The notes below the pieces were generated by a model. It made no database searches. It worked only from the letters and a program-made list of their open reading frames with translations, and was not told where the DNA came from. Shown here in pieces: positions 27,063 to 38,718 of a DNA stretch of 64,000 nt. Made by a program: the position numbers and the translations under genes. The number at the start of each line of letters is the position of its first letter. Positions within the stretch are counted from its first letter, which is position 1. The stretch comes from Arcticibacter svalbardensis MN12-7 (lineage in GTDB: Bacteria; Bacteroidota; Bacteroidia; Sphingobacteriales; Sphingobacteriaceae): contig NZ_AQPN01000002.1 in NCBI RefSeq assembly GCF_000403135.1, forward strand, positions 1 through 64,000, read 5' to 3'.

Positions 27063-27824
27063 TTAACCAAAATGCCCTTTTACATAATTTGCTGTCAAAT
27101 CATTTTTAGGATCGCTAAACAGTGTTTTTGTATCCCCTTCTTCAATAATCTCCCCCAGATACATAAAAACAGTCTTATCAGCTACACGCTGTGCTTGTTG
27201 CATATTATGCGTAACAATGATAATAGTATAATCCTTTTTCAGTTTTACTATTAACTCCTCAATTTTTAAAGTACTCAAAGGATCAAGAGCGGAGCACGGT
27301 TCATCCATCAATATCACTTCAGGTCGCAATGAAACAGCCCGGGCAATACACAAACGTTGCTGCTGACCACCTGATAATCGTGTAGCAGGCTTTTGCATCT
27401 CGTCCTTCACTTCCTCCCAAATATAACTTTCTTTCAGCGCATTTTCAATAATCGATTGCCGTTTTTCTTTAGGTACATCATTGATTTTTAAGCCGTAATT
27501 AATGTTCTCATAGATACTTTTAGGAAAAGGATTCGCTTTTTGAAATACCATCCCTATCCTACTCCGTACCTGTGTCACGGAAAGATCATTTTCATACAAG
27601 TCCTGCTGCTCCAACAAAAACTTACCTTCAATCCTGGCATCAGGTGAAAGGTCGTGCATCCGGTTAAAACATCTTAACAGCGTGCTTTTACCACAGCCTG
27701 AAGGGCCGATCAAGGCAGTAATCTGATTCTTTGGAAAGGAAACATTAATATTTTTAAGCACCTGCTTATTGCCAAACCACAGATTCACTGAAGATGCGGA
27801 AAGTTTGATATCATCTTTATTCAT
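27063..27824 (-). CDS. pstB: Phosphate ABC transporter ATP-binding protein
   Basis: 253 residues. ABC ATPase energising phosphate import. Walker A GPSGCGKST (residues 40-48), Q-loop GMVFQKANPFPKSIYENINYG, signature LSGGQQQRLCIARA, Walker B VILMDEPCSALDP, H-loop IIVTHNMQQA. NPFPKSIYEN is typical of PstB. The start overlaps the pstA end by 8 bp. phoU does not follow within this window. Confidence 0.97.
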   Translation of the reverse strand: MNKDDIKLSASSVNLWFGNKQVLKNINVSFPKNQITALIGPSGCGKSTLLRCFNRMHDLSPDARIEGKFLLEQQDLYENDLSVTQVRSRIGMVFQKANPFPKSIYENINYGLKINDVPKEKRQSIIENALKESYIWEEVKDEMQKPATRLSGGQQQRLCIARAVSLRPEVILMDEPCSALDPLSTLKIEELIVKLKKDYTIIIVTHNMQQAQRVADKTVFMYLGEIIEEGDTKTLFSDPKNDLTANYVKGHFG

Positions 27825-28662
27825 TTTTGCTGTGTTTGTACCTGATGTAAAATGCAGTTAAATTTAATAAGAACACTACGATAATCAGCACAAGAGCAGT
27901 GCCGTAGGCAAGTGGTCTGACTTCCTCAATCGCCTGATGCTGCGTAGACAGCATATACAAATGATAAGGAAGCGACATAAATTCCTGATTTATAAAACCG
28001 GAAGGATTATTTATATAAAAGGCAACTCCTGTAAACAGGATCGGAGCAGTCTCACCAGCCGCTCTGGATAATGTCAATACCACTCCCGTTAATATGCCCG
28101 GTAAGGCAGATGGTAAAACCACATCGACAATGGATTCAAACTGAGTCGCACCAACCGCCAATGCCGCCTCTCGCGTACTGGCAGGGATCCGTCGTAATGC
28201 CTCTTCCGTAGTAATGATAATATAAGGCAACGAGAGCAGACCTAATGTAAAACCAGCAGATAGTAAAGATGTGCCCATTTGCAGACCCTGGACAAATAAC
28301 GCTAAGCCAAATAATCCATATATAATAGAAGGCACACCAGCTAGGTTCCGGATTGAAGCACGAATCAGTCTGGTTACCCAATTGTCACTAGCATATTCGT
28401 TCAGATATATGGCACAGCTAATTCCAAAAGGAACAGCAACCAAGGCAGTGATCATCGTTAACAGCACTGTACCTATTATTGCTGGCAGAATGCCACCCTT
28501 TGTCATACCTTCCCTGGGCAGTGTACTAACAAATTCCCATGACAATGAAGGAGCACCCTTACTGATCAGATCCCAAAGAATGATGATCAAAAATAAACAA
28601 ACAATACCTGTGCTCAAGAGTAAGGTTGACCATTCAATAACTGATGTAAGTTTCTTTATCAT
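27817..28662 (-). CDS. pstA: Phosphate ABC transporter permease PstA
   Basis: 281 residues, six membrane helices. Permease EAA-type loop region EEALRRIPASTREAALAVGATQFESIVDVVLPSALPGILTGVVLTLSRAAGETAPILFTG. Overlaps pstC by 4 bp and pstB by 8 bp, so the four genes are tightly coupled. Confidence 0.96.
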   Translation of the reverse strand: MIKKLTSVIEWSTLLLSTGIVCLFLIIILWDLISKGAPSLSWEFVSTLPREGMTKGGILPAIIGTVLLTMITALVAVPFGISCAIYLNEYASDNWVTRLIRASIRNLAGVPSIIYGLFGLALFVQGLQMGTSLLSAGFTLGLLSLPYIIITTEEALRRIPASTREAALAVGATQFESIVDVVLPSALPGILTGVVLTLSRAAGETAPILFTGVAFYINNPSGFINQEFMSLPYHLYMLSTQHQAIEEVRPLAYGTALVLIIVVFLLNLTAFYIRYKHSKNE

Positions 28663-29549
28663 GCGGAATGGTATTTTCTAAATTTGTTTACATAATGCTC
28701 ACCCAGCAGATTTACAGCCAAAGTAATTAAAAACAATACGGCAGCAATGGCAAAAAGGGAATAGTAATGGGTCGTTTGGTAAGGTACTTCACCCATTTCA
28801 ATAGCAATTGTAGCGGTTATAGTTCGCACTGAATTAAAAAACCCTTTCGGAAAAGCAGAAGCATTTCCTGTAGCCATCAGCACAGTCATCGTTTCCCCAA
28901 TAGCTCGACCAACTCCAAGCATTACCGCGGCTAGGATCCCTGGAGCAGCAGCCGGAATAGTCACATAGATCAATGTTTTCCATTTACTTGCCCCCACTGC
29001 ATAACTCGCCTCTTTATACATATGAGGCACACCATGTAAGGCATCTTCTGCTACTGTTATAATGGTTGGCAGAGCCATTACAGCAAGTAAAATAGCACCG
29101 TTTAAAGCATTTAATCCATTTGGTTGTCCGGTTAATTGCGCAATACCAGGACCTAAAATCACAATTCCTAAAAAGCCGATAGCAACAGAAGGAACCGCTG
29201 CCAGCATTTCAATAATAGGTTTTAAAATATTTTTAAGCCTTTTACCTGCATATTCAGAAAGGAATGAAGCAGTTCCTATACCCAAAGGAATAGCAATTAC
29301 CATGGCACCAAGAGTAACCAGGCAGGTGCTGACTAATAAAGGTAATATTCCATAAGTAGCAGGATTACCTGAAGGATTCCATTGGGTGCCTGTTATAAAA
29401 TCCATTGGTTTAATCTTCAAAAAGAAAGCTGCAGTATTCCATAGTAGCATGAAAAATATACCGCCAAGAATAGCGATAACCAAAAACCCGGTTGTTTTTA
29501 CAAGCAATTTTACTGAATGGTCAATACGTTCTCTGGCACGTAACTGCAT
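28659..29549 (-). CDS. pstC: Phosphate ABC transporter permease PstC
   Basis: 296 residues, six membrane helices. Typical PstC motifs: GTASFLSEYAGKRLKNILKPIIEMLAAVPSVAIGFLG and DALHGVPHMYKEASYAVGASKWKTL followed by GRAIGETMTVLMATGNA. Lies between pstS (14-bp gap) and pstA (4-bp overlap). Confidence 0.96.
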   Translation of the reverse strand: MQLRARERIDHSVKLLVKTTGFLVIAILGGIFFMLLWNTAAFFLKIKPMDFITGTQWNPSGNPATYGILPLLVSTCLVTLGAMVIAIPLGIGTASFLSEYAGKRLKNILKPIIEMLAAVPSVAIGFLGIVILGPGIAQLTGQPNGLNALNGAILLAVMALPTIITVAEDALHGVPHMYKEASYAVGASKWKTLIYVTIPAAAPGILAAVMLGVGRAIGETMTVLMATGNASAFPKGFFNSVRTITATIAIEMGEVPYQTTHYYSLFAIAAVLFLITLAVNLLGEHYVNKFRKYHSA

Positions 29550-29562
29550 ATGCTTCTTTTTA

Positions 29563-30393
29563 TTAATTTATGATGTAATAACCTGAATCCCGAATGATCT
29601 TTTGTCCTAAGGCCCCTTTTTCAAATGCAATAAAAGCCTCTACTTTTCCCCATGATGTTGTAGGAATAAACTGATATAATGGTCTTTGAAAGTAATAAAG
29701 GCCAGCATTAATGGCTTCCTTATCCAATGGAGAGATAGCAGGAAGACCCATTTTCTCTGTAATTTTGAGCACTTTTACCGGCTGCTCTGTTCCATCCTGA
29801 AGAATATATCCCGCTCCAACATATCCAATACCCGAAACATCCATCTTAACGCCTTCCATGATCTGGGCATTCCCGTTCATTTCTTTTGCATCGCGACTAA
29901 ACTCGATAGCTAACTTTTTCTTCACAAAGGAGTGTGTACCCGAATTGCTCTGCCTTCCGTAAATATTCACCGGAACATCTTGTCCCGTAACCTTCTTCCA
30001 GGTTTTATATTTGCCGCTAAGAATATTACGCAAGCCTTTAACATCAATACTATCCAGAGGGAAATTTTTTTGTACGATAAAGGCAGTTGCATCTTCAGCA
30101 AATACAATGGTGCGAAGCTCTATTTTACGAGTTTTAAACAGATTAATTTCTTCTTCATTTAGCGGTCTGGAGGAATTGGCTACATCAGCCTGCCCGTTTA
30201 GCAACGAAGCAATACCCAAACCTGATCCTCCACCAGAAATAGCAATGCTGAAATCTGAATTTACCTTATAGAAATTCTCTGCGAGCTGAACAGCTAAATT
30301 TACCTCGGTATCAGATCCTTTTACTTTAATAGATTTATTGTTACTACTGCATCCTAAAAGCAATATGACCCACAAGCACCCGAAGTATTTCAT
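29563..30393 (-). CDS. pstS: Phosphate-binding lipoprotein PstS
   Basis: 276 residues. N-terminal signal with lipobox LLLGC (Cys15). Phosphate-binding fold: IKVKGSDTEVNLAVQLAENF, ISGGGSGLGIASLLNGQADVANSSRPL, and VNIYGRQSNSGTHSFVKKKL, the loops that contact phosphate. First gene of pstSCAB. Its promoter carries heptamer repeats resembling a Pho box. Confidence 0.95.
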   Translation of the reverse strand: MKYFGCLWVILLLGCSSNNKSIKVKGSDTEVNLAVQLAENFYKVNSDFSIAISGGGSGLGIASLLNGQADVANSSRPLNEEEINLFKTRKIELRTIVFAEDATAFIVQKNFPLDSIDVKGLRNILSGKYKTWKKVTGQDVPVNIYGRQSNSGTHSFVKKKLAIEFSRDAKEMNGNAQIMEGVKMDVSGIGYVGAGYILQDGTEQPVKVLKITEKMGLPAISPLDKEAINAGLYYFQRPLYQFIPTTSWGKVEAFIAFEKGALGQKIIRDSGYYIIN

Positions 30394-30413: not shown

Positions 30414-30459
30414 CAAATGTAATGCGCCATGATTAAGTTTAGATTAAGCTAATGTTAGG
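30414..30459 (-). promoter_or_regulatory. pstS promoter with Pho-box-like repeats
   Basis: On the coding (minus) strand: CTAACAT, TTAATCT, TTAATCA, each 11 bp apart with 4-bp spacers, then 8 bp, then TACATTTG (30414-30421), which matches the -7 consensus TAnnTTTG. The ATG is 20 bp further on. The heptamer order, period and 8-bp gap match the susC promoter. Confidence 0.8.
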
Positions 30460-30514
30460 GAAAAATTAGCTCATCAAATCGTATACTTGTTTATCAATTA
30501 AGCCACATTTATCC

Positions 30515-31327
30515 TTACAATTTTGAAGGTTTGTTGTACACCAATTTTCTTACATTAAATTTGGCATAACTATGATCACCATCTGTGAGTTTCCATATCG
30601 CTTCAGCAGAAGTTGGTACTAGTATCCCATCAAATTCCTTATAGTTATTTAATTTTATCAACCAGGTTTCCAGACCTCCCTCACCTAGATATCTTTTAGT
30701 TTCAAGTTGTGTAATCTCTCCAATAGCATTAAAACTTGCAATTAAAAACAGGGAAATATCATTATAATCGAAGGTTAATCGGGCCGTTTGAGCATCTATA
30801 GAACTCCAATCTAACCTATCACCTGGTAAAAGATTGGTAGGAAACCAAATGTTCTCGCTAAGCCACCTCAATAACTCGCCCTGATTAAACTTTTCGCCTT
30901 TCCCATTGACAATCGTAAAGAGTGATAAAAGAGAGACTTTTAACCCTCCTTTGTCGCTGATATATAGATCACGCGCAGTAAACATGGACGAAACACCTTT
31001 CCAAATAAAACCAGGTTTTGCAGTTGTAAAATATTGTTCACCCTTTATGTTGATCCAGTCCTTGTCTAAACCTGTTTTAAACTGCCCATCATGTCTAAGA
31101 CTAGCGTAACCGATATAAGGTTGTCCCTCTTTAAGAATATGTTTAAAATAACGTTGTACTGGCTCTGGCAAATCAACAACTTGTTGCGATCGAAATACCT
31201 GACCAGAAATGTCACCGGACTGAGCAAAAAGTTCTTTTACTTGTTTACTAAATTGAATGGACAAGTTTATCCTACTAACAATCAAAAGAAGAAGGATAAG
31301 TCCACATAAAGAAAGTGTGATGATCAT
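30515..31327 (-). CDS. DUF6544-family membrane-anchored protein
   Basis: 270 residues from the ATG at 31327 (another ATG at 31360 overlaps the upstream stop). N-terminal membrane anchor (IITLSLCGLILLLLIVSRI), then a mostly beta domain with LPEPVQRYFKHIL, IKGEQYFTTAKPGFIWKG and RLTFDYNDISLFLIASFN, features of the DUF6544 (earlier DUF6920) family, function unknown. 11 bp after the nitroreductase gene, so probably one operon. Confidence 0.8.
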   Translation of the reverse strand: MIITLSLCGLILLLLIVSRINLSIQFSKQVKELFAQSGDISGQVFRSQQVVDLPEPVQRYFKHILKEGQPYIGYASLRHDGQFKTGLDKDWINIKGEQYFTTAKPGFIWKGVSSMFTARDLYISDKGGLKVSLLSLFTIVNGKGEKFNQGELLRWLSENIWFPTNLLPGDRLDWSSIDAQTARLTFDYNDISLFLIASFNAIGEITQLETKRYLGEGGLETWLIKLNNYKEFDGILVPTSAEAIWKLTDGDHSYAKFNVRKLVYNKPSKL

Positions 31328-31338
31328 AAAATAAAGTT

Positions 31339-32457
31339 TTAAACTGTACGCATAAACCATTCCACAGGTCTCCTGAGAGATACTGGCTGCGGATAATTTT
31401 TAACATACCCTGTACGCAATATAAATTGCACAGGATCACTGACCCCGATGGAAGAATTCAAGCTTTTATCTATTGCCGCTTCTTCTATTATTTGTGTCAT
31501 TGGATGAATGGCGATACCTCTTTCCCGTATTTTCAACAGCATACGTTGCAATCGCATACCCGTTTCAATTAATGTTACCGGAGAACTGTCATTACTCGTA
31601 ATAAGCAGCCAGCCAGCAGACTGAGCCACTTGTTCCTTAACAGCATCAATACTTTGCTCCCTGAAACTACTTTTCATCACATCTTCTTTTCCATAAAAGT
31701 TTCGCAATACCCAGGCAGGTATACCTTTTATTTCCATGCTGGCTAAAGTAAGTCCGTCGTTATTTTTTTGAGCATCATTACTTGAAAACCTGATCCAGTT
31801 TGCCAATTCTTTTTGTGCCGCATTACGGTATGCCTGAATCCTGTTGGCTTCAATGGTCTGCTCATTCAACCATTTACATTCCTTTGCCCTATTCGATATA
31901 AAGTACATGAACCCTAATTCCTGTCTAATAAGATAATTCACATCAGCAGTTTTCAATACATCGTTCAAATAGTTAGACCTTACTGTTCTACGGAGTAAAA
32001 TTTGCGTGGTATCGTATTTAATAACATTGGAAGATTTAACCAATTTTACCACTGCAATAGTTTCATCCTGGTTGCTCTTTGCCAAGATCTCACATTGATA
32101 TGAATACCCCAAATTACCAGCTGCGTATTCCAGATTCTGGAGAAAAGCACCTATCGATAACAGCGTTTCCCTTTGAGTAGGATCCACACCCGGAAGCCAT
32201 TTACTTTTATCGTTCCCTATAATCCAGTGATACGGCTCTATGTATTTAACAAACCAAGGTTGTGTATTATGTCCGCTTGGTGCTAATGAAGCTAAATAAA
32301 GAATTTCACGTTCATCTTTTTGAAAAGAAATATCCCCTGAAGCGTTTGTTAAACTATTTTCTCTAACAAAATTACTTTTGTCAGTTGACCAATAATAGCC
32401 ACCGGCTGCTATTACAGTAGTTACTCCTGCAATACTTATAAACTTTCTTCTGTTCAT
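31339..32457 (-). CDS. Acg-like nitroreductase family protein
   Basis: 372 residues from MNRRKFISIAG (32457), a start chosen because MNRRKF plus the following hydrophobic stretch is a Tat-like/anchor signal. Body: LASLAPSGHNTQPWFVKY (FMN-binding N-terminal motif of nitroreductases), LLRRTVRSNYLND, and C-terminal RMLLKIRERGIAIHPMTQIIEE. This is the long Acg family. A membrane- or periplasm-bound flavoprotein is likely; substrate unknown. Divergent from susC across about 290 bp. Confidence 0.82.
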   Translation of the reverse strand: MNRRKFISIAGVTTVIAAGGYYWSTDKSNFVRENSLTNASGDISFQKDEREILYLASLAPSGHNTQPWFVKYIEPYHWIIGNDKSKWLPGVDPTQRETLLSIGAFLQNLEYAAGNLGYSYQCEILAKSNQDETIAVVKLVKSSNVIKYDTTQILLRRTVRSNYLNDVLKTADVNYLIRQELGFMYFISNRAKECKWLNEQTIEANRIQAYRNAAQKELANWIRFSSNDAQKNNDGLTLASMEIKGIPAWVLRNFYGKEDVMKSSFREQSIDAVKEQVAQSAGWLLITSNDSSPVTLIETGMRLQRMLLKIRERGIAIHPMTQIIEEAAIDKSLNSSIGVSDPVQFILRTGYVKNYPQPVSLRRPVEWFMRTV

Positions 32458-32690
32458 AATTATTAACTGTAGCAATATAATTACTACGGGGTAAAGGTCG
32501 AATAATATAATCGTAAAGCGTTGAAATATAAATAAAGGTTCTTATAAAACCGAAAAACGCTTCAGTTTTATGCAATTGTTTATCTAAAACAGCACAGATC
32601 TGCCAATTAGCATCCGTGAACACAACAAATACAAATGGCAAATATTGCCATTATATCAACATTAAAAATGGAAGGTTTTTGTCTTGAAGT

Positions 32691-32746
32691 TTAATCTTGA
32701 GTTAACATAATCATTAAATTGTTTTAACATTCCCGCAATATCTTTG
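32691..32746 (+). promoter_or_regulatory. susC promoter with four Pho-box-like repeats
   Basis: TTAATCT (32691), TTAACAT (32702), ATTAAAT (32713), TTAACAT (32724): four heptamers at exact 11-bp steps. Eight bases later is TATCTTTG (32739-32746), an exact -7 box. A weak -33 element (TTG at 32719) overlaps the third and fourth repeats. The first ATG is only 12-19 bp downstream. Confidence 0.8.
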
Positions 32747-32764
32747 CGTGCAAATACAATGCAT

Positions 32765-35700
32765 ATGAAAAATAAAACATTTACAAGACTAACAAAATTG
32801 CTGTTGTCTGCGGTTCTGCTAATTGCCTCTATAGGCGCCTATGCGCAGACACAGACAATCAGTGGTACCGTCAATGATCGGGACAATCTATCCATTCCCG
32901 GTGTAAACGTAACCTTAAAAGGATCGAAACTGCAAACCAGAACAGATGCAAATGGAAAATACGCCATTCAGGGTCTTAACAATAAATCAGTCCTTGTTTT
33001 TTCCTTTATCGGTTTCGCAACTCAGGAAGTCGCTGTCGGTAACAAGACAACAATCAATGTCAGACTCGAAGCAGATTCAAAGACCTTAAATGAGATCGTT
33101 GTAGTTGGTTATGGGGTACAAAAGAAGGCTAACCTTACGGGTGCAGTTGACCAGGTAACCAGTGAAACCTTGCAAAACAGGCCGATACCAAACCTTTCAC
33201 AGGGTCTTCAGGGAGTAATGCCCAACTTAAATATCCGGATGATGGATGGAAAGCCAACGCAGTCGCCCAGTTATAATATCCGAGGTACCACATCCGTTGG
33301 ACAAGGTGGAAGCGCCCTGGTATTGATAGACGGGTTTGAGGGAGATCCAAGTCTGCTTAACCCAAACGATATTGAAACCGTATCGATGCTTAAAGATGCC
33401 GCCTCAGCCGCAATATACGGAGCAAGAGGTGTATTTGGAGTAATTCTGATTACCACTAAAAAGGCAGCAAAAGGCCGTACTAATGTTGCTTTCTCTTCCA
33501 ATTACGCCATAAAAAGCCCCCTTCAAACGCCTGACTTTGTCACTGACGGCTATACCTGGGCAAAAATGTTCTCTGAAGCGTTTGTAAACGGAGATGGCGC
33601 TTTTCCTCAAAACGCAAACAAAACGCAGAAGTTTTCTCAGGCTTACCTGGATGAATTTAAAAGAAGGTCAGAATCCGGACAACCTTATAATGAAGTAGAA
33701 GTCGATCCTGTAACAGGCGAATACACCTACTATGGCAATACCGATTGGTATGGCCAGCTTTACAAAAAGAATACCGCAGCCAGCGAAAATAACATCACAA
33801 TAAGTGGAGGTGGTGATAAAACAACCTTCCTTGTATCCGGTCGTTTTTTACAACAGGACGGACTCTTCCGCTACAACTCGGATGATTATGATACGAAAAA
33901 CATTCGTGCAAAAGGCTCTATACAGGTCTTTCCATGGATGAGCATAGAAAACAATGCAGATTTCTCTGTGATGAACTACCATAACCCAATTAACGTAGGA
34001 GAAGGAGGAGGAATCTGGAGAAACATTGCAGATGAAGGCCATCCAACTGTTCCCATGTTAAACCCCGACGGCTCACTGACCTTTACAGCAGCCTATACCG
34101 TTGGTGATCTTTATTATGGAAAGAATGGAATAGATACTAAAAAACAAGTTTTCAGGGATATAACCGGGTTGAGAACAAACTTTTTTAACAATAAATTCAG
34201 AGTGAACGCTGATTTTACCTTCCGTAACACTGACAACAATATAGATCAAAAAAGAGTTCAGGTTCCCTACAGTACCTCACTAGGTAAAATTGCCTATGTA
34301 GGAACAGCGACCAATGATCTGTTATTCGATAGAAGAGAAACACAATACCTGGCCACTAACATATACGGTGAATTTGAAAATACGTTCAACAATGACCACT
34401 ATGTCAAGTTTATGGCCGGTTATAACTATGAACAATCCACCTATACTAAGCAATCCACACAAAGAAATGGAATCATCTTTGAAGATGCCACAAATCTGAA
34501 CCTGGTTCTTGGACAAGCCATTACCACCGGTGGAGATTATGAAAAATGGGCAATACTTGGTGGATTCTCCCGCTTAAACTATGTTTTCAAGGATAGATAC
34601 CTGGTAGAAGTCAATGCCCGATACGATGGTTCTTCTAAATTTCCATCCAATCAGCGTTATGGATTCTTCCCTTCCGTGTCGGCAGGATGGAGAATCAACC
34701 AGGAGCCCTTCTGGAAAATCTCCCCGAAGTATATTTCTGATTTGAAATTAAGAGCTTCTTACGGATCGCTCGGCAATGGAAACATAAATTCCTATGCGTT
34801 TCAAGAACTTTTCAAAATCACGCAATCTGATATCTTACTGAATGGCGTCAGACCACAAACTACCAGTCAGCCTGCCGTTCTTCCAGAAGAATTAACATGG
34901 GAAACGTCCACAACGACAAACGTAGGATTGGATCTTTCCATGTTCTCCAACCGTTTAACATTTGCTGGTGATGCTTATGTACGTAAAACAACAAATATGT
35001 TTGTTTCAGGTTTAACCCCTCCAGCTATTTTTGGGAATGATGCACCTAAAGGAAACTATGCTGATTTAGAAACCAAAGGCTGGGAATTATCCTTAGGCTG
35101 GAATGATAAAATAGGCAATAGTAAACCATTAAAATATAATATCCGCCTTACTCTTGCAGATAATAAATCGAAAATCACCAAGTACACTAACCCAACCAAA
35201 ATACTGACCAATGTGAATGGAAACGGTGACGGTACTGGTTATTATGAAGGAATGGTATTAGGGGAGATCTGGGGGTATGAAACAGAAGGTTTCTTCATTG
35301 ATCAGGCCGACATAGATGCGCATGCCAAACAAAATCCGCAAATGAGAGCATCTCCGACCAATATCTGGTATCCCGGAGATATCAAATTAAAAGACCTGAA
35401 TGGCGATAGCTTGATTAATGTAGGCTCAAACACAGTTGCCGATCCAGGTGACCGGAGAATCATCGGAAATAATGCTCCAAGATATCTGTATGGTATAAAC
35501 CTGGGTGCTGATTATAATAACTTCTTCTTCTCCACCTTTTTCCAGGGGGTTGGTAAGCAGCAATGGTACCCAAGTACAGAAACTGAGATGTTCTGGGGTC
35601 AATACAACAGGCCTTACAACAACATCCCTACCTTCCAGGTTGGCAATATGTGGACACCCGAAAACACAAACGCTTATTTTCCAAGAACGATGTCACGTGC

Positions 35701-36025
35701 TGCATCCAGCAATACCAACAGAGAACTTGGTGTAGCTCAGACCAAATACCTGCAAAACGTAGCTTATCTCCGGATGAAGAATATTCAGGTAGGATACAAT
35801 TTACCAGTCCGGTTGATCTCCAGAATCGGTGCCCGCAACGCTAGAGTATATTTCTCCGGAGAGAACCTGTTCACTTACTCTCCGCTCTACAAAATTGTCA
35901 AAACCATAGATGTAGAAAACGCGGTACCTTCAGATCAGGACCTGAACGCAAACAGCAGAAACGGCGATGGTAATAACTACCCTTTGCTAAAAAGTGTTTC
36001 ATTAGGCTTAAACGTCGGGTTTTAA
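32765..36025 (+). CDS. SusC/RagA-family TonB-dependent outer-membrane transporter
   Basis: About 1086 residues. The ATG at 32765 (or 32759) is used because the -7 box overlaps any earlier start. Signal peptide ends at GAYAQ; then a carboxypeptidase-like CNA-B domain (ISGTVNDRDNLSIPGVNVTLKGS), the SusC motif NEIVVVGYGVQKKANLTGAV, plug domain (IRGTTSVGQGGSALVLIDGFEG) and 22-strand barrel ending SVSLGLNVGF. Imports a ligand captured by SusD. The Pho-box-like promoter and the phosphatase-type partner suggest a phosphorus-containing ligand, not a plain glycan (inference). Confidence 0.95.
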   Translation: MKNKTFTRLTKLLLSAVLLIASIGAYAQTQTISGTVNDRDNLSIPGVNVTLKGSKLQTRTDANGKYAIQGLNNKSVLVFSFIGFATQEVAVGNKTTINVRLEADSKTLNEIVVVGYGVQKKANLTGAVDQVTSETLQNRPIPNLSQGLQGVMPNLNIRMMDGKPTQSPSYNIRGTTSVGQGGSALVLIDGFEGDPSLLNPNDIETVSMLKDAASAAIYGARGVFGVILITTKKAAKGRTNVAFSSNYAIKSPLQTPDFVTDGYTWAKMFSEAFVNGDGAFPQNANKTQKFSQAYLDEFKRRSESGQPYNEVEVDPVTGEYTYYGNTDWYGQLYKKNTAASENNITISGGGDKTTFLVSGRFLQQDGLFRYNSDDYDTKNIRAKGSIQVFPWMSIENNADFSVMNYHNPINVGEGGGIWRNIADEGHPTVPMLNPDGSLTFTAAYTVGDLYYGKNGIDTKKQVFRDITGLRTNFFNNKFRVNADFTFRNTDNNIDQKRVQVPYSTSLGKIAYVGTATNDLLFDRRETQYLATNIYGEFENTFNNDHYVKFMAGYNYEQSTYTKQSTQRNGIIFEDATNLNLVLGQAITTGGDYEKWAILGGFSRLNYVFKDRYLVEVNARYDGSSKFPSNQRYGFFPSVSAGWRINQEPFWKISPKYISDLKLRASYGSLGNGNINSYAFQELFKITQSDILLNGVRPQTTSQPAVLPEELTWETSTTTNVGLDLSMFSNRLTFAGDAYVRKTTNMFVSGLTPPAIFGNDAPKGNYADLETKGWELSLGWNDKIGNSKPLKYNIRLTLADNKSKITKYTNPTKILTNVNGNGDGTGYYEGMVLGEIWGYETEGFFIDQADIDAHAKQNPQMRASPTNIWYPGDIKLKDLNGDSLINVGSNTVADPGDRRIIGNNAPRYLYGINLGADYNNFFFSTFFQGVGKQQWYPSTETEMFWGQYNRPYNNIPTFQVGNMWTPENTNAYFPRTMSRAASSNTNRELGVAQTKYLQNVAYLRMKNIQVGYNLPVRLISRIGARNARVYFSGENLFTYSPLYKIVKTIDVENAVPSDQDLNANSRNGDGNNYPLLKSVSLGLNVGF

Positions 36026-36055: not shown

Positions 36056-37834
36056 ATGAAAAAATACTATATATGGATTCTGCTAGGCTGTTTAGGTTTC
36101 ACAGCATGTAAGAACCTCGATCAGGAGCCTGAGGCTACGGCTACCAAATCTGCAGTTTTCGGCAATGAAAGCGGACTAAAATTGTATACAAATTCTTTTT
36201 ACAACTTGTCTTTCCTGCCCAGGAATTCCCCAAGTCAGGATGCTATGTCAGATTACCTGGCTGTTCGTTCAGTAGACCCCTTTTTGCAGCCTGGATACGC
36301 ACCTGTTTCAAGCTCAGGGTGGGACTGGAAAGATTTAAGAAATATCAATTATTTTATCGCCAACTGTAATGACCCTAAGGTTCCAGTAGAAGTGAGGAAT
36401 AATTACCTGGGTATTGCCCGGTATTACAGAGCCTACTTCTATATGGAAAAGGTAAAACGATTCGGAGATGTGCCATGGATGGGAAAGCCTATTGAGATAG
36501 ACGATGCTGCATTATATGGGCCACGTGACAAACGCGAAGTGGTCATGGATTCTGTATTAGCGGACATTAATTTTGCGTGTGCAAACATTATGGCTACCGA
36601 TGATGCTTCTAGAAGTACCGTTACAAAATATGTGGCTTATGCCTATAAGTCGAGACTATGCCTTTTCGAAGGTACATTCAGAAAATACCATACCGAGTTA
36701 AATCTTACATCTACAGCCAATACCTGGCTTACCAATGCTGCAGAGGCCGCCAAGTACGTCATGGATAATGGCAAATACACCATCAATACTGCCGGTGGAG
36801 CGGGCGTTTCATATCGCCAGTTATTCATCAGCACGCTGCCTGTTACCACAGAAGTATTGCAAGCTACAGTTAGTGACCTGGCTTTGAATGTTTTACACGA
36901 TGCCAATTGGTGGTGGACAAGTGGAACGTATGGTGCTAAAGCAAGTTTTACCCGAACGTTTATCAATACCTTCTTAAAACTGGATGGAACACCCTACACA
37001 AATGATCCTGCTTATACAACCATGTTGTTCAAAGACGAGGTCAAAAACAGAGACCTGAGGTTAAAACAAACCATTCGCTCAGGCGATTACAAAAGGATCA
37101 GTAATGGTGCTCAGGTACCTGCACCTCCTTTATTCTCTTATACCTTTACCGGATATCAGCCCATTAAGTTGACAGTGGATGATATTTATTATGACGCTGG
37201 AAAATTAAATATCAACGCTATCCCCTTATTCAGGTATGCAGAAGTACTATTAAACTATGCTGAGGCAAAAGCCGAACTGGGTACACTTACAGATGCAGAA
37301 TGGGCACAAACTATAGGCGTACTTCGAGCAAGAGCAGGAATATCAGGAGGATTAGCAGCGAAGCCAACAGTGGTTGATCCTTACCTGGTAGCTAACTATT
37401 TCCCTGGTATCTCTGACCCTGTTATTTTGGAAGTACGACGTGAAAGAGGTATTGAACTGAGTCTGGAAGGGTTTCGTTACGCTGATATTTTAAGATGGAA
37501 AAGAGGAAAACTGATGGAACAGCAATGGAATGGTTTTTATGTCCCTTCACTAGTAACACCTATGGATCTAAACGAAGACGGGATTCTGGATGTCGCTTTC
37601 TATCAGGGTACAGCACCGACACCAGCAGTTGCCGGAGTAACTTATGTAAACGTCTCTCCTAAATTGGGCACTAACACCAATTCACAGTTATTGAAAAATG
37701 GAACATCAGGAGAACTGATCTGGATGAACGAGATCACGCGTAAATGGGATGATAATGACAAGCAGTACTACTACCCTATTCCGCAAGTTGACTTACAAAC
37801 AAATCCAGCACTTGGACAAAATCCAGGTTGGTAA
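36056..37834 (+). CDS. SusD/RagB-family ligand-binding lipoprotein
   Basis: 592 residues. Lipobox GFTAC (Cys near residue 18). N-terminal TPR-like region (NNYLGIARYYRAYFYMEKVKRFGDVPWMGKPI) and C-terminal SusD signature (IPLFRYAEVLLNYAEAKAEL; EVRRERGIELSLEGFRYADILRWKRGKLMEQ; YYYPIPQVDLQTNPALGQNPGW). Caps the SusC barrel and binds ligand on the cell surface. 30 bp after susC. Confidence 0.95.
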   Translation: MKKYYIWILLGCLGFTACKNLDQEPEATATKSAVFGNESGLKLYTNSFYNLSFLPRNSPSQDAMSDYLAVRSVDPFLQPGYAPVSSSGWDWKDLRNINYFIANCNDPKVPVEVRNNYLGIARYYRAYFYMEKVKRFGDVPWMGKPIEIDDAALYGPRDKREVVMDSVLADINFACANIMATDDASRSTVTKYVAYAYKSRLCLFEGTFRKYHTELNLTSTANTWLTNAAEAAKYVMDNGKYTINTAGGAGVSYRQLFISTLPVTTEVLQATVSDLALNVLHDANWWWTSGTYGAKASFTRTFINTFLKLDGTPYTNDPAYTTMLFKDEVKNRDLRLKQTIRSGDYKRISNGAQVPAPPLFSYTFTGYQPIKLTVDDIYYDAGKLNINAIPLFRYAEVLLNYAEAKAELGTLTDAEWAQTIGVLRARAGISGGLAAKPTVVDPYLVANYFPGISDPVILEVRRERGIELSLEGFRYADILRWKRGKLMEQQWNGFYVPSLVTPMDLNEDGILDVAFYQGTAPTPAVAGVTYVNVSPKLGTNTNSQLLKNGTSGELIWMNEITRKWDDNDKQYYYPIPQVDLQTNPALGQNPGW

Positions 37835-37881: not shown

Positions 37882-38718
37882 ATGAAATTTAGATCATTAA
37901 TATTAACCGCAATACTTTTCATGATCACCATGGCTAGCAACGCGCAATCACTCACTGTAGGAACCTTCAATATCCGCTATGACAATGCAGGCGACACAGG
38001 CAACTTATGGGTAAACCGTGCCCCTGTAGTGGCCAACTTAATCCGCTTTCACGACTTTGATGTACTGGGAATCCAGGAAGGATTAATAAACCAGATTGAC
38101 GACATCAGTGCTGCCCTGCCTGAATATGCACGATATGGCCTTGGTCGCGATGACGGTAAAGATGCAGGAGAGCATTCCGCTATTTATTATAAGAAAGATA
38201 AATTCAAACTGCTAAAAAAAGGGGACTTCTGGTTGTCTGAAACACCTGATGTACCCGGAAAAGGTTGGGATGCTACTTGCTGCAACCGCATCTGTACCTG
38301 GGTTTACCTGCAGGACATCCAAAGTAAAAAGTCGTTCTACATGTTCAATGTACACTTTGATCATCAGGGTGTGATAGCCCGTAAGGAAAGCGCAAAACTG
38401 ATCCTGAAAAAGATTAAAGAAATAGCGAAGAATGAACCGGTCTTGTTTACAGGTGACCTGAACGGCGACCGTAGCAGCGATTGGTATCTAACTCTGGCCA
38501 ACTCTGGTATTTTGCAGGATGTACATGGCAAAGTAAAGTATCCTTATGAAAACAACTCATCAATGAATGCATTCAGAACTCCGCGTGGAATGGCTGTTAT
38601 TGATCATATATTCATGACTAAACAGTTTACTGCAAAGAAATGGGGCATTCTTACGGATACCTATTATGGTAAATTCCCATCAGACCATTTTCCTATAAAG
38701 GCAGTAGTGGAGTTATAG
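37882..38718 (+). CDS. Secreted endonuclease/exonuclease/phosphatase family enzyme
   Basis: 278 residues. Signal peptide MKFRSLILTAILFMITMASNAQ. EEP fold motifs: VGTFNIRYDN, DVLGIQEGL (metal Glu), FNVHFDHQG, FTGDLNGDRSSDWY (catalytic Asp/Asn), VIDHIFM and SDHFPIKA (catalytic His). The family cleaves phosphodiester or phosphomonoester bonds (nucleic acids, sphingomyelin, inositol phosphates). Placed 47 bp after susD, in an operon with a Pho-like promoter. The presumed role is to release phosphate from the SusCD ligand; the actual substrate is unknown. Confidence 0.92.
   Translation: MKFRSLILTAILFMITMASNAQSLTVGTFNIRYDNAGDTGNLWVNRAPVVANLIRFHDFDVLGIQEGLINQIDDISAALPEYARYGLGRDDGKDAGEHSAIYYKKDKFKLLKKGDFWLSETPDVPGKGWDATCCNRICTWVYLQDIQSKKSFYMFNVHFDHQGVIARKESAKLILKKIKEIAKNEPVLFTGDLNGDRSSDWYLTLANSGILQDVHGKVKYPYENNSSMNAFRTPRGMAVIDHIFMTKQFTAKKWGILTDTYYGKFPSDHFPIKAVVEL

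Follow-up and report, generated by a model that had tools for sequence, protein, structure and literature searches.

Heptamer arrays at the pst and susC promoters

The window, i.e., the complete stretch of 64,000 nucleotides of Arcticibacter svalbardensis MN12-7 that was analyzed, contains a minus-strand operon composed of pstS, two permease genes and pstB, and a plus-strand operon in which a susC-like and a susD-like gene are followed by a gene of the endonuclease/exonuclease/phosphatase family. Each operon is preceded by an array of directly repeated heptamers and by an octamer of the form TAnnTTTG, which we take to be the −7 box from established knowledge of Bacteroidota promoters. These features are the following:

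27063 to 27824, minus strand: pstB ATPase (TIGR00972 above cut-off)
27817 to 28662, minus strand: pst permease (PF00528)
28659 to 29549, minus strand: pst permease (PF00528)
29563 to 30393, minus strand: pstS, phosphate-binding protein (PF12849; TIGR02136 below cut-off)
30414 to 30421, minus strand: presumed −7 box TACATTTG of the pstS promoter, 8 bp past the last heptamer (direct read; TAnnTTTG site scoring)
30430 to 30436, minus strand: putative Pho-box heptamer TTAATCA, proximal, pstS promoter (direct read; own-genome pattern search; orthologues)
30441 to 30447, minus strand: putative Pho-box heptamer TTAATCT, pstS promoter (direct read; own-genome pattern search; orthologues)
30452 to 30458, minus strand: putative Pho-box heptamer CTAACAT, distal, pstS promoter (direct read; kept in the relative L108)
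32691 to 32697, plus strand: putative Pho-box heptamer TTAATCT, distal, susC promoter (direct read)
32702 to 32708, plus strand: putative Pho-box heptamer TTAACAT, susC promoter (direct read; orthologue comparison)
32713 to 32719, plus strand: degenerate unit ATTAAAT, susC promoter (direct read)
32724 to 32730, plus strand: putative Pho-box heptamer TTAACAT, proximal, susC promoter (direct read; orthologue comparison)
32739 to 32746, plus strand: presumed −7 box TATCTTTG of the susC promoter, 8 bp past the last heptamer (direct read; TAnnTTTG site scoring)
32759 to 36025, plus strand, ATG at 32759 or 32765: susC-like (PusC-like) TonB-dependent transporter (PF13715, PF07715, PF00593)
36056 to 37834, plus strand: susD-like (PusD-like) lipoprotein (PF07980)
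37882 to 38718, plus strand: endonuclease/exonuclease/phosphatase-family enzyme, same operon as susC-susD (PF03372)

Read directly on the minus strand from 30458 to 30414, the pstS promoter is CTAACAT-tagc-TTAATCT-aaac-TTAATCA-tggcgcat-TACATTTG, and the susC promoter, read on the plus strand from 32691 to 32746, is TTAATCT-tgag-TTAACAT-aatc-ATTAAAT-tgtt-TTAACAT-tcccgcaa-TATCTTTG. The heptamer consensus of both arrays is TTAACAT and the units are in phase, with a period of 11 bp. The original prediction had described heptamers recurring every 11 bp with 4-bp spacers, the last one followed by exactly 8 bp and then TAnnTTTG: the recurrence is exact to the base in both promoters and the 8-bp distance is also correct. 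One 11-bp step upstream of the distal pstS heptamer, which is conserved before an orthologue that is 93% identical (L108), an additional degenerate unit, CTAATTT, constitutes a fourth unit. The third susC unit, ATTAAAT, fits the consensus weakly; GTTAAAT occupies its position in the relative L147, and many orthologues present GTTAAAG or ATTAAAG one slot upstream.

The enzyme encoded at the end of the susC operon is a frequent neighbor of susD. Among the 80 loci fetched by SusD, whose nearest named relative is found in Arcticibacter eurypsychrophilus (90%), 49 possess a PF03372 homologue, nearly always immediately 3′ of susD, and about 31 of these homologues share 65–94% identity with the enzyme. 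The SusC–SusD pair of the window adjoins a phosphatase-superfamily gene, as defines PusCD systems. Because the susC operon ends with such a gene, the pst and susC operons are plausibly both phosphorus operons that share a nutrient. Two minus-strand genes, one encoding a DUF6544/DUF6920 protein and the other a protein of the nitroreductase family, are located between the two promoters (30515–32475) and show no obvious connection to phosphate. Within a few kb of the pst operon, a gene for polyphosphate kinase 2 (PF03976; 22323–23066) adjoins a gene of the ATP-synthase alpha/beta family.

We scored each of the 78 exact TAnnTTTG sites that the two strands of the window contain, together with its four upstream in-phase slots. 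The susC and pstS sites scored 25.0 and 24.7, respectively, and the third-best site 16.2. The best score across 300 dinucleotide shuffles was 20.6, which is below both arrays, but this test is partly circular since the scoring weights were derived from the two arrays themselves. The independent evidence is therefore the conservation of the arrays in related species.

Conservation of the arrays in related genomes

Before susC orthologues, promoters resembling TTAA(C/T)AT-N4-TT(T/C)A(C/T)AT-N8-TAG(T/C)TTTG were found in Pedobacter, Mucilaginibacter and Sphingobacterium. A score of at least 17.5 was reached on the coding strand in 27 of 68 testable susC loci and on the opposite strand in none. 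Among the orthologue loci tested, those of Runella, Emticicia and Bacteroidales mostly lack the array, as do most distant SusC paralogues. In L147, whose susC orthologue is the closest to that of the window (93% identical), the array is kept but the −7 box stands at 19 bp instead of 8. Between the L146 and L147 susC promoters, the array-to-box gap thus grows by a single step of 11 bp (8 vs 19), and this pair represents a natural helical-phasing experiment.

Conservation before pstS orthologues had been proposed as a check of the pattern, and arrays were indeed found upstream of both close and distant PstS orthologues. Before DUF47 genes, the array was present in all 30 sampled genomes of the family, about 30 bp before the ATG in 29 of them, with PiT located 3′ of DUF47 in 29. 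These arrays are mostly letter-perfect, with TTAACAT twice, N8 and TAnnTTTG. Across these 30 promoters, the information content reaches 1.8 and 2.0 bits per position in the two heptamers and 2.0 in the box but is 0.4 in the flanks, and a −33 TTG was found in just two. Outside the family, the DUF47 array was present in just four of the 20 genomes searched; all four belong to a single family (f4) and their spacing to the box is 8, 18 or 19 bp.

When upstream sequences were pooled, good heptamers paired at 11, 22 and 33 bp, and the distance from 11-bp pairs to an exact TAnnTTTG was 8, 19 or 30 bp, i.e., 8 + 11n. The DUF47 upstreams presented 29 pairs at 8 bp, four at 19 and three elsewhere, and the distant PstS upstreams six at 19, nine at 30 and none elsewhere; these counts are not independent events because the upstream sequences are related. 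The opposite strand of the DUF47 and PstS upstreams yielded no array match.

The likeness of the two window arrays could in principle be due to chance, since the window offers only two examples, one of which, the susC array, has an imperfect third unit. But none of the 300 shuffles came near the array scores and the arrays are independently conserved in tens of genomes; on these grounds we reject chance, whose probability we regard as practically nil. The original prediction was therefore right that chance was unlikely, but the description of the two operons as unrelated is not entirely accurate, given the PF03372 gene that ends the susC operon.

Distribution across the genome, the family and the phylum

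The A. svalbardensis genome was searched for the pattern TTAAYMT-N4-TTAAYMT-N8-TAnnTTTG and for a control pattern. Five places matched with at most one mismatch: the perfect match lies upstream of DUF47 and PiT (PF01865, PF01384), and the four others precede pstS, a PI-PLC gene (PF16670), an ECF sigma gene (recognized by eye) and a TonB receptor gene that is followed by a lipoprotein-like gene. Specificity fades from two mismatches onward, as the counts with the box come near those of the control (10 vs 7 at two mismatches, then 40 vs 34 at three). Allowing one mismatch without the −7 box was too unspecific (150 matches vs 107), and the N19 form, with 7 matches vs 4, is weak by itself. A box-less pair, TTAACAT-N4-TTAATCT, was found upstream of a phosphate-selective-porin-family gene (PF07396).

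Two loci of this genome are worth describing further. The TonB receptor gene just mentioned (C137) possesses a second heptamer pair farther upstream, in the same 11-bp register, and the lipoprotein-like gene that follows it has no Pfam match (L063:3590-5020); this arrangement recalls the receptor–lipoprotein pairs of Flavobacterium in low phosphate (PMC8115612). The genome also harbors a second, canonical pstSCAB-phoU operon (C106; L062:8495-12789). The search for an in-phase array upstream of this operon yielded none, only an inverted heptamer pair well upstream, in contrast to the distant PstS orthologues of other genera, which do carry arrays.

Across 101 genomes of the same family, the exact pattern was found 87 times against 0 for the reversed pattern, a lenient control because it lacks a natural promoter box. 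DUF47-PiT phosphate-transporter genes lie downstream of 61 of these 87 matches. The 26 others include six TonB receptors homologous to the C137 receptor (34–45% identity), three alkaline phosphatase genes (PF00245 checked for one), a calcineurin-like phosphoesterase, a phosphoesterase-like gene, two SusC-like genes and seven ECF sigma genes (two checked with Pfam). In 395 genomes of the phylum, the strict TTAACAT form matched ten times (control: 0), before six DUF47 genes, two TonB receptors, one TetR-like gene and one phosphoesterase-like gene, the last called by eye since Pfam gave propeller domains only. As predicted, the pattern was enriched upstream of phosphate transporter and phosphatase genes, and not of unrelated genes, in the genome itself, in the family and in the phylum.

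ECF sigma genes with promoters resembling this lattice were observed in the genome itself (C9:4711, C43:82616 and C103:56298) and in relatives (L341, L349, L351, L352, L354, L359 and L365). Several of them are followed by FecR and TonB-receptor genes, and the last gene of the C103 operon has, by eye, the look of a type I phosphodiesterase/nucleotide pyrophosphatase (L370:5360-6700). These promoters may belong to the Pho regulon or may be ECF promoters of similar appearance, and this subset of matches is not fully explained by reading the arrays as Pho boxes.

It could be argued that the repeats represent AT-rich promoter DNA of a generic kind, similar to UP elements, rather than the site of a regulator. 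The repeats are AT-rich, and the loose pattern, when searched with no −7 box, exceeds its control only modestly. However, their conservation at the level of single letters next to unconserved flanks, the strict 11-bp phasing, the lack of matches on the opposite strand, the lack of arrays at most SusC paralogues and the 87 vs 0 matches of the family all disfavor this explanation, which we consider highly improbable.

A candidate regulator and comparison with known Pho boxes

The genome encodes eight OmpR-type regulators, seven of which were scanned with PhoB models. The top PhoB score belongs to an orphan regulator (C24; L071:1036-1719), which remains under both curated PhoB cut-offs (TIGR02154, 225 bits vs 296.2; NF053854, 221 vs 270). 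Most of its 30 orthologues present arrays of the type TTAACAA-N4-TTAATAT-N4-TTAAC upstream, often set back by one step, at 19 bp from a TAnnTTTA/G-like box; the array before the gene in A. svalbardensis has irregular spacing. This distribution is consistent with autoregulation of the C24 regulator through its own promoter. A PhoR-like kinase (HisKA + HATPase_c) is encoded just upstream of the DUF47 site in all 30 family genomes. No response regulator gene is adjacent to this kinase (L061:7414-9161; relatives L077–L106), and the PhoB-like regulator is an orphan located elsewhere. The presence of a PhoB-type regulator with repeats upstream and of a PhoR-like kinase beside the strongest site supports the attribution of the arrays to the PhoB family.

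The direct repeats might nevertheless be bound by a different regulator of the OmpR/PhoB family, for instance one responding to redox or envelope stress, with phosphate genes as only part of its regulon. Direct-repeat binding is common to OmpR-family regulators, of which this genome has eight, and ECF sigma genes are found among the matches. The DAP-seq motif of PhoP from Riemerella anatipestifer, a regulator of the OmpR/PhoB family in the same phylum, also has a core, TTTAACA, that overlaps TTAACA; in the passages found of that study, this core is likened to ArcA and the targets number in the hundreds, many of them non-phosphate and without a phosphate focus, and the spacing to a −7 box is not described (PMC9603813). 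However, phosphate genes dominate the targets of the arrays, the PhoB-like regulator has an array before its own gene and the PhoR-like kinase stands beside the commonest target. We therefore consider another regulator unlikely.

Overall, the arrays are very probably Pho boxes, i.e., tandem head-to-tail sites for the phosphorylated PhoB of this Sphingobacteriaceae genome. They consist of 7+4 direct repeats at a fixed helical position, with phosphate-acquisition genes downstream across species. The sequence, period, phasing and conservation of the arrays and the kinds of downstream gene were read directly; beyond this, we infer that the PhoB in question is the C24 protein, which would bind the arrays, activate rather than repress and respond to phosphate. 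When phosphate is scarce, the PhoR-like kinase would phosphorylate PhoB, whose dimers would line up along the 11-bp direct repeats on a single face of the DNA, 8, 19 or 30 bp upstream of TAnnTTTG. With 8 bp between the proximal unit and the −7 box, PhoB would cover the −33 contact region and supply this contact, and steps of 11 bp would keep PhoB on the same face, hence the distances of 8, 19 and 30. Phosphorylated PhoB would then substitute for the absent −33 element and attract RNA polymerase carrying the housekeeping sigma factor of Bacteroidota. This would switch on phosphate uptake by pst together with the SusC-SusD-phosphatase operon, which would scavenge organic phosphorus.

More broadly, and with slightly less than even confidence, we propose that the family uses a distinct, quantized Pho code, with TTAACAT repeats locked at 8 + 11n bp from TAnnTTTG, in which PhoB can activate at one, two or three steps of the helix upstream. 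This code would also control nutrient import across the outer membrane by PusCD-like pairs and a conserved family of TonB receptors and, via ECF sigma–FecR loci, a second tier of regulation for the scavenging of organic phosphorus. A defined and scannable code would allow Pho regulons to be predicted from the sequences of many Bacteroidota of soil and water, and SusCD and TonB-receptor loci that are otherwise anonymous would gain a probable function. The geometry of activator and polymerase at Bacteroidota −33/−7 promoters would also become directly testable.

The TTAACAT box is most likely a Pho box of distinct form, set apart by its consensus and by how it is phased relative to the −7 box. 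The PhoP box of Bacillus subtilis consists of TT(A/T)ACA-type direct repeats with an 11-bp period: its core letters are very similar and the period is identical, but it belongs to another phylum with another core promoter. The E. coli Pho box is composed of two 11-nt direct repeats (7+4 bp) with a CTGTCAT core, and its consensus is species-dependent, so the missing CTGTCAT is not disqualifying (PMC4415409). As in E. coli, the 7+4-bp repeats are head-to-tail, precede pst and phosphatase genes and apparently replace the upstream core promoter element; unlike in E. coli, the heptamer is TTAACAT and is coupled to TAnnTTTG at 8 + 11n bp.

Earlier reports on Bacteroidota describe SusCD systems that are induced by phosphate depletion as well as binding by PhoB, but the operator sequence was not found in the papers searched; likewise, neither a Bacteroidota Pho box, nor the TTAACAT consensus, nor its phasing to the −7 box was found in the searched literature, which covered few subscription journals. 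According to the text found for Bacteroides fragilis, PhoB binds a 512-bp pstC promoter fragment in EMSA and both pst and a PiT-like phosphate/sulphate permease gene depend on it, with binding described at the level of the fragment and no box sequence given (PMC3547664). In Flavobacterium, PusCD systems are SusCD pairs located beside phosphatases or phosphodiesterases and induced by phosphate depletion; the terms "Pho box", "motif" and "promoter" are absent from the main text of that study (PMC8115612). The partner enzyme of the window susCD differs from those described in being of the PF03372 type. The low-phosphate genes of Flavobacterium include a PF16670 enzyme, TonB receptor–lipoprotein pairs, PhoB and a FecR-like regulator (PMC8115612), and these kinds of genes match the kinds of array targets identified in our analysis.
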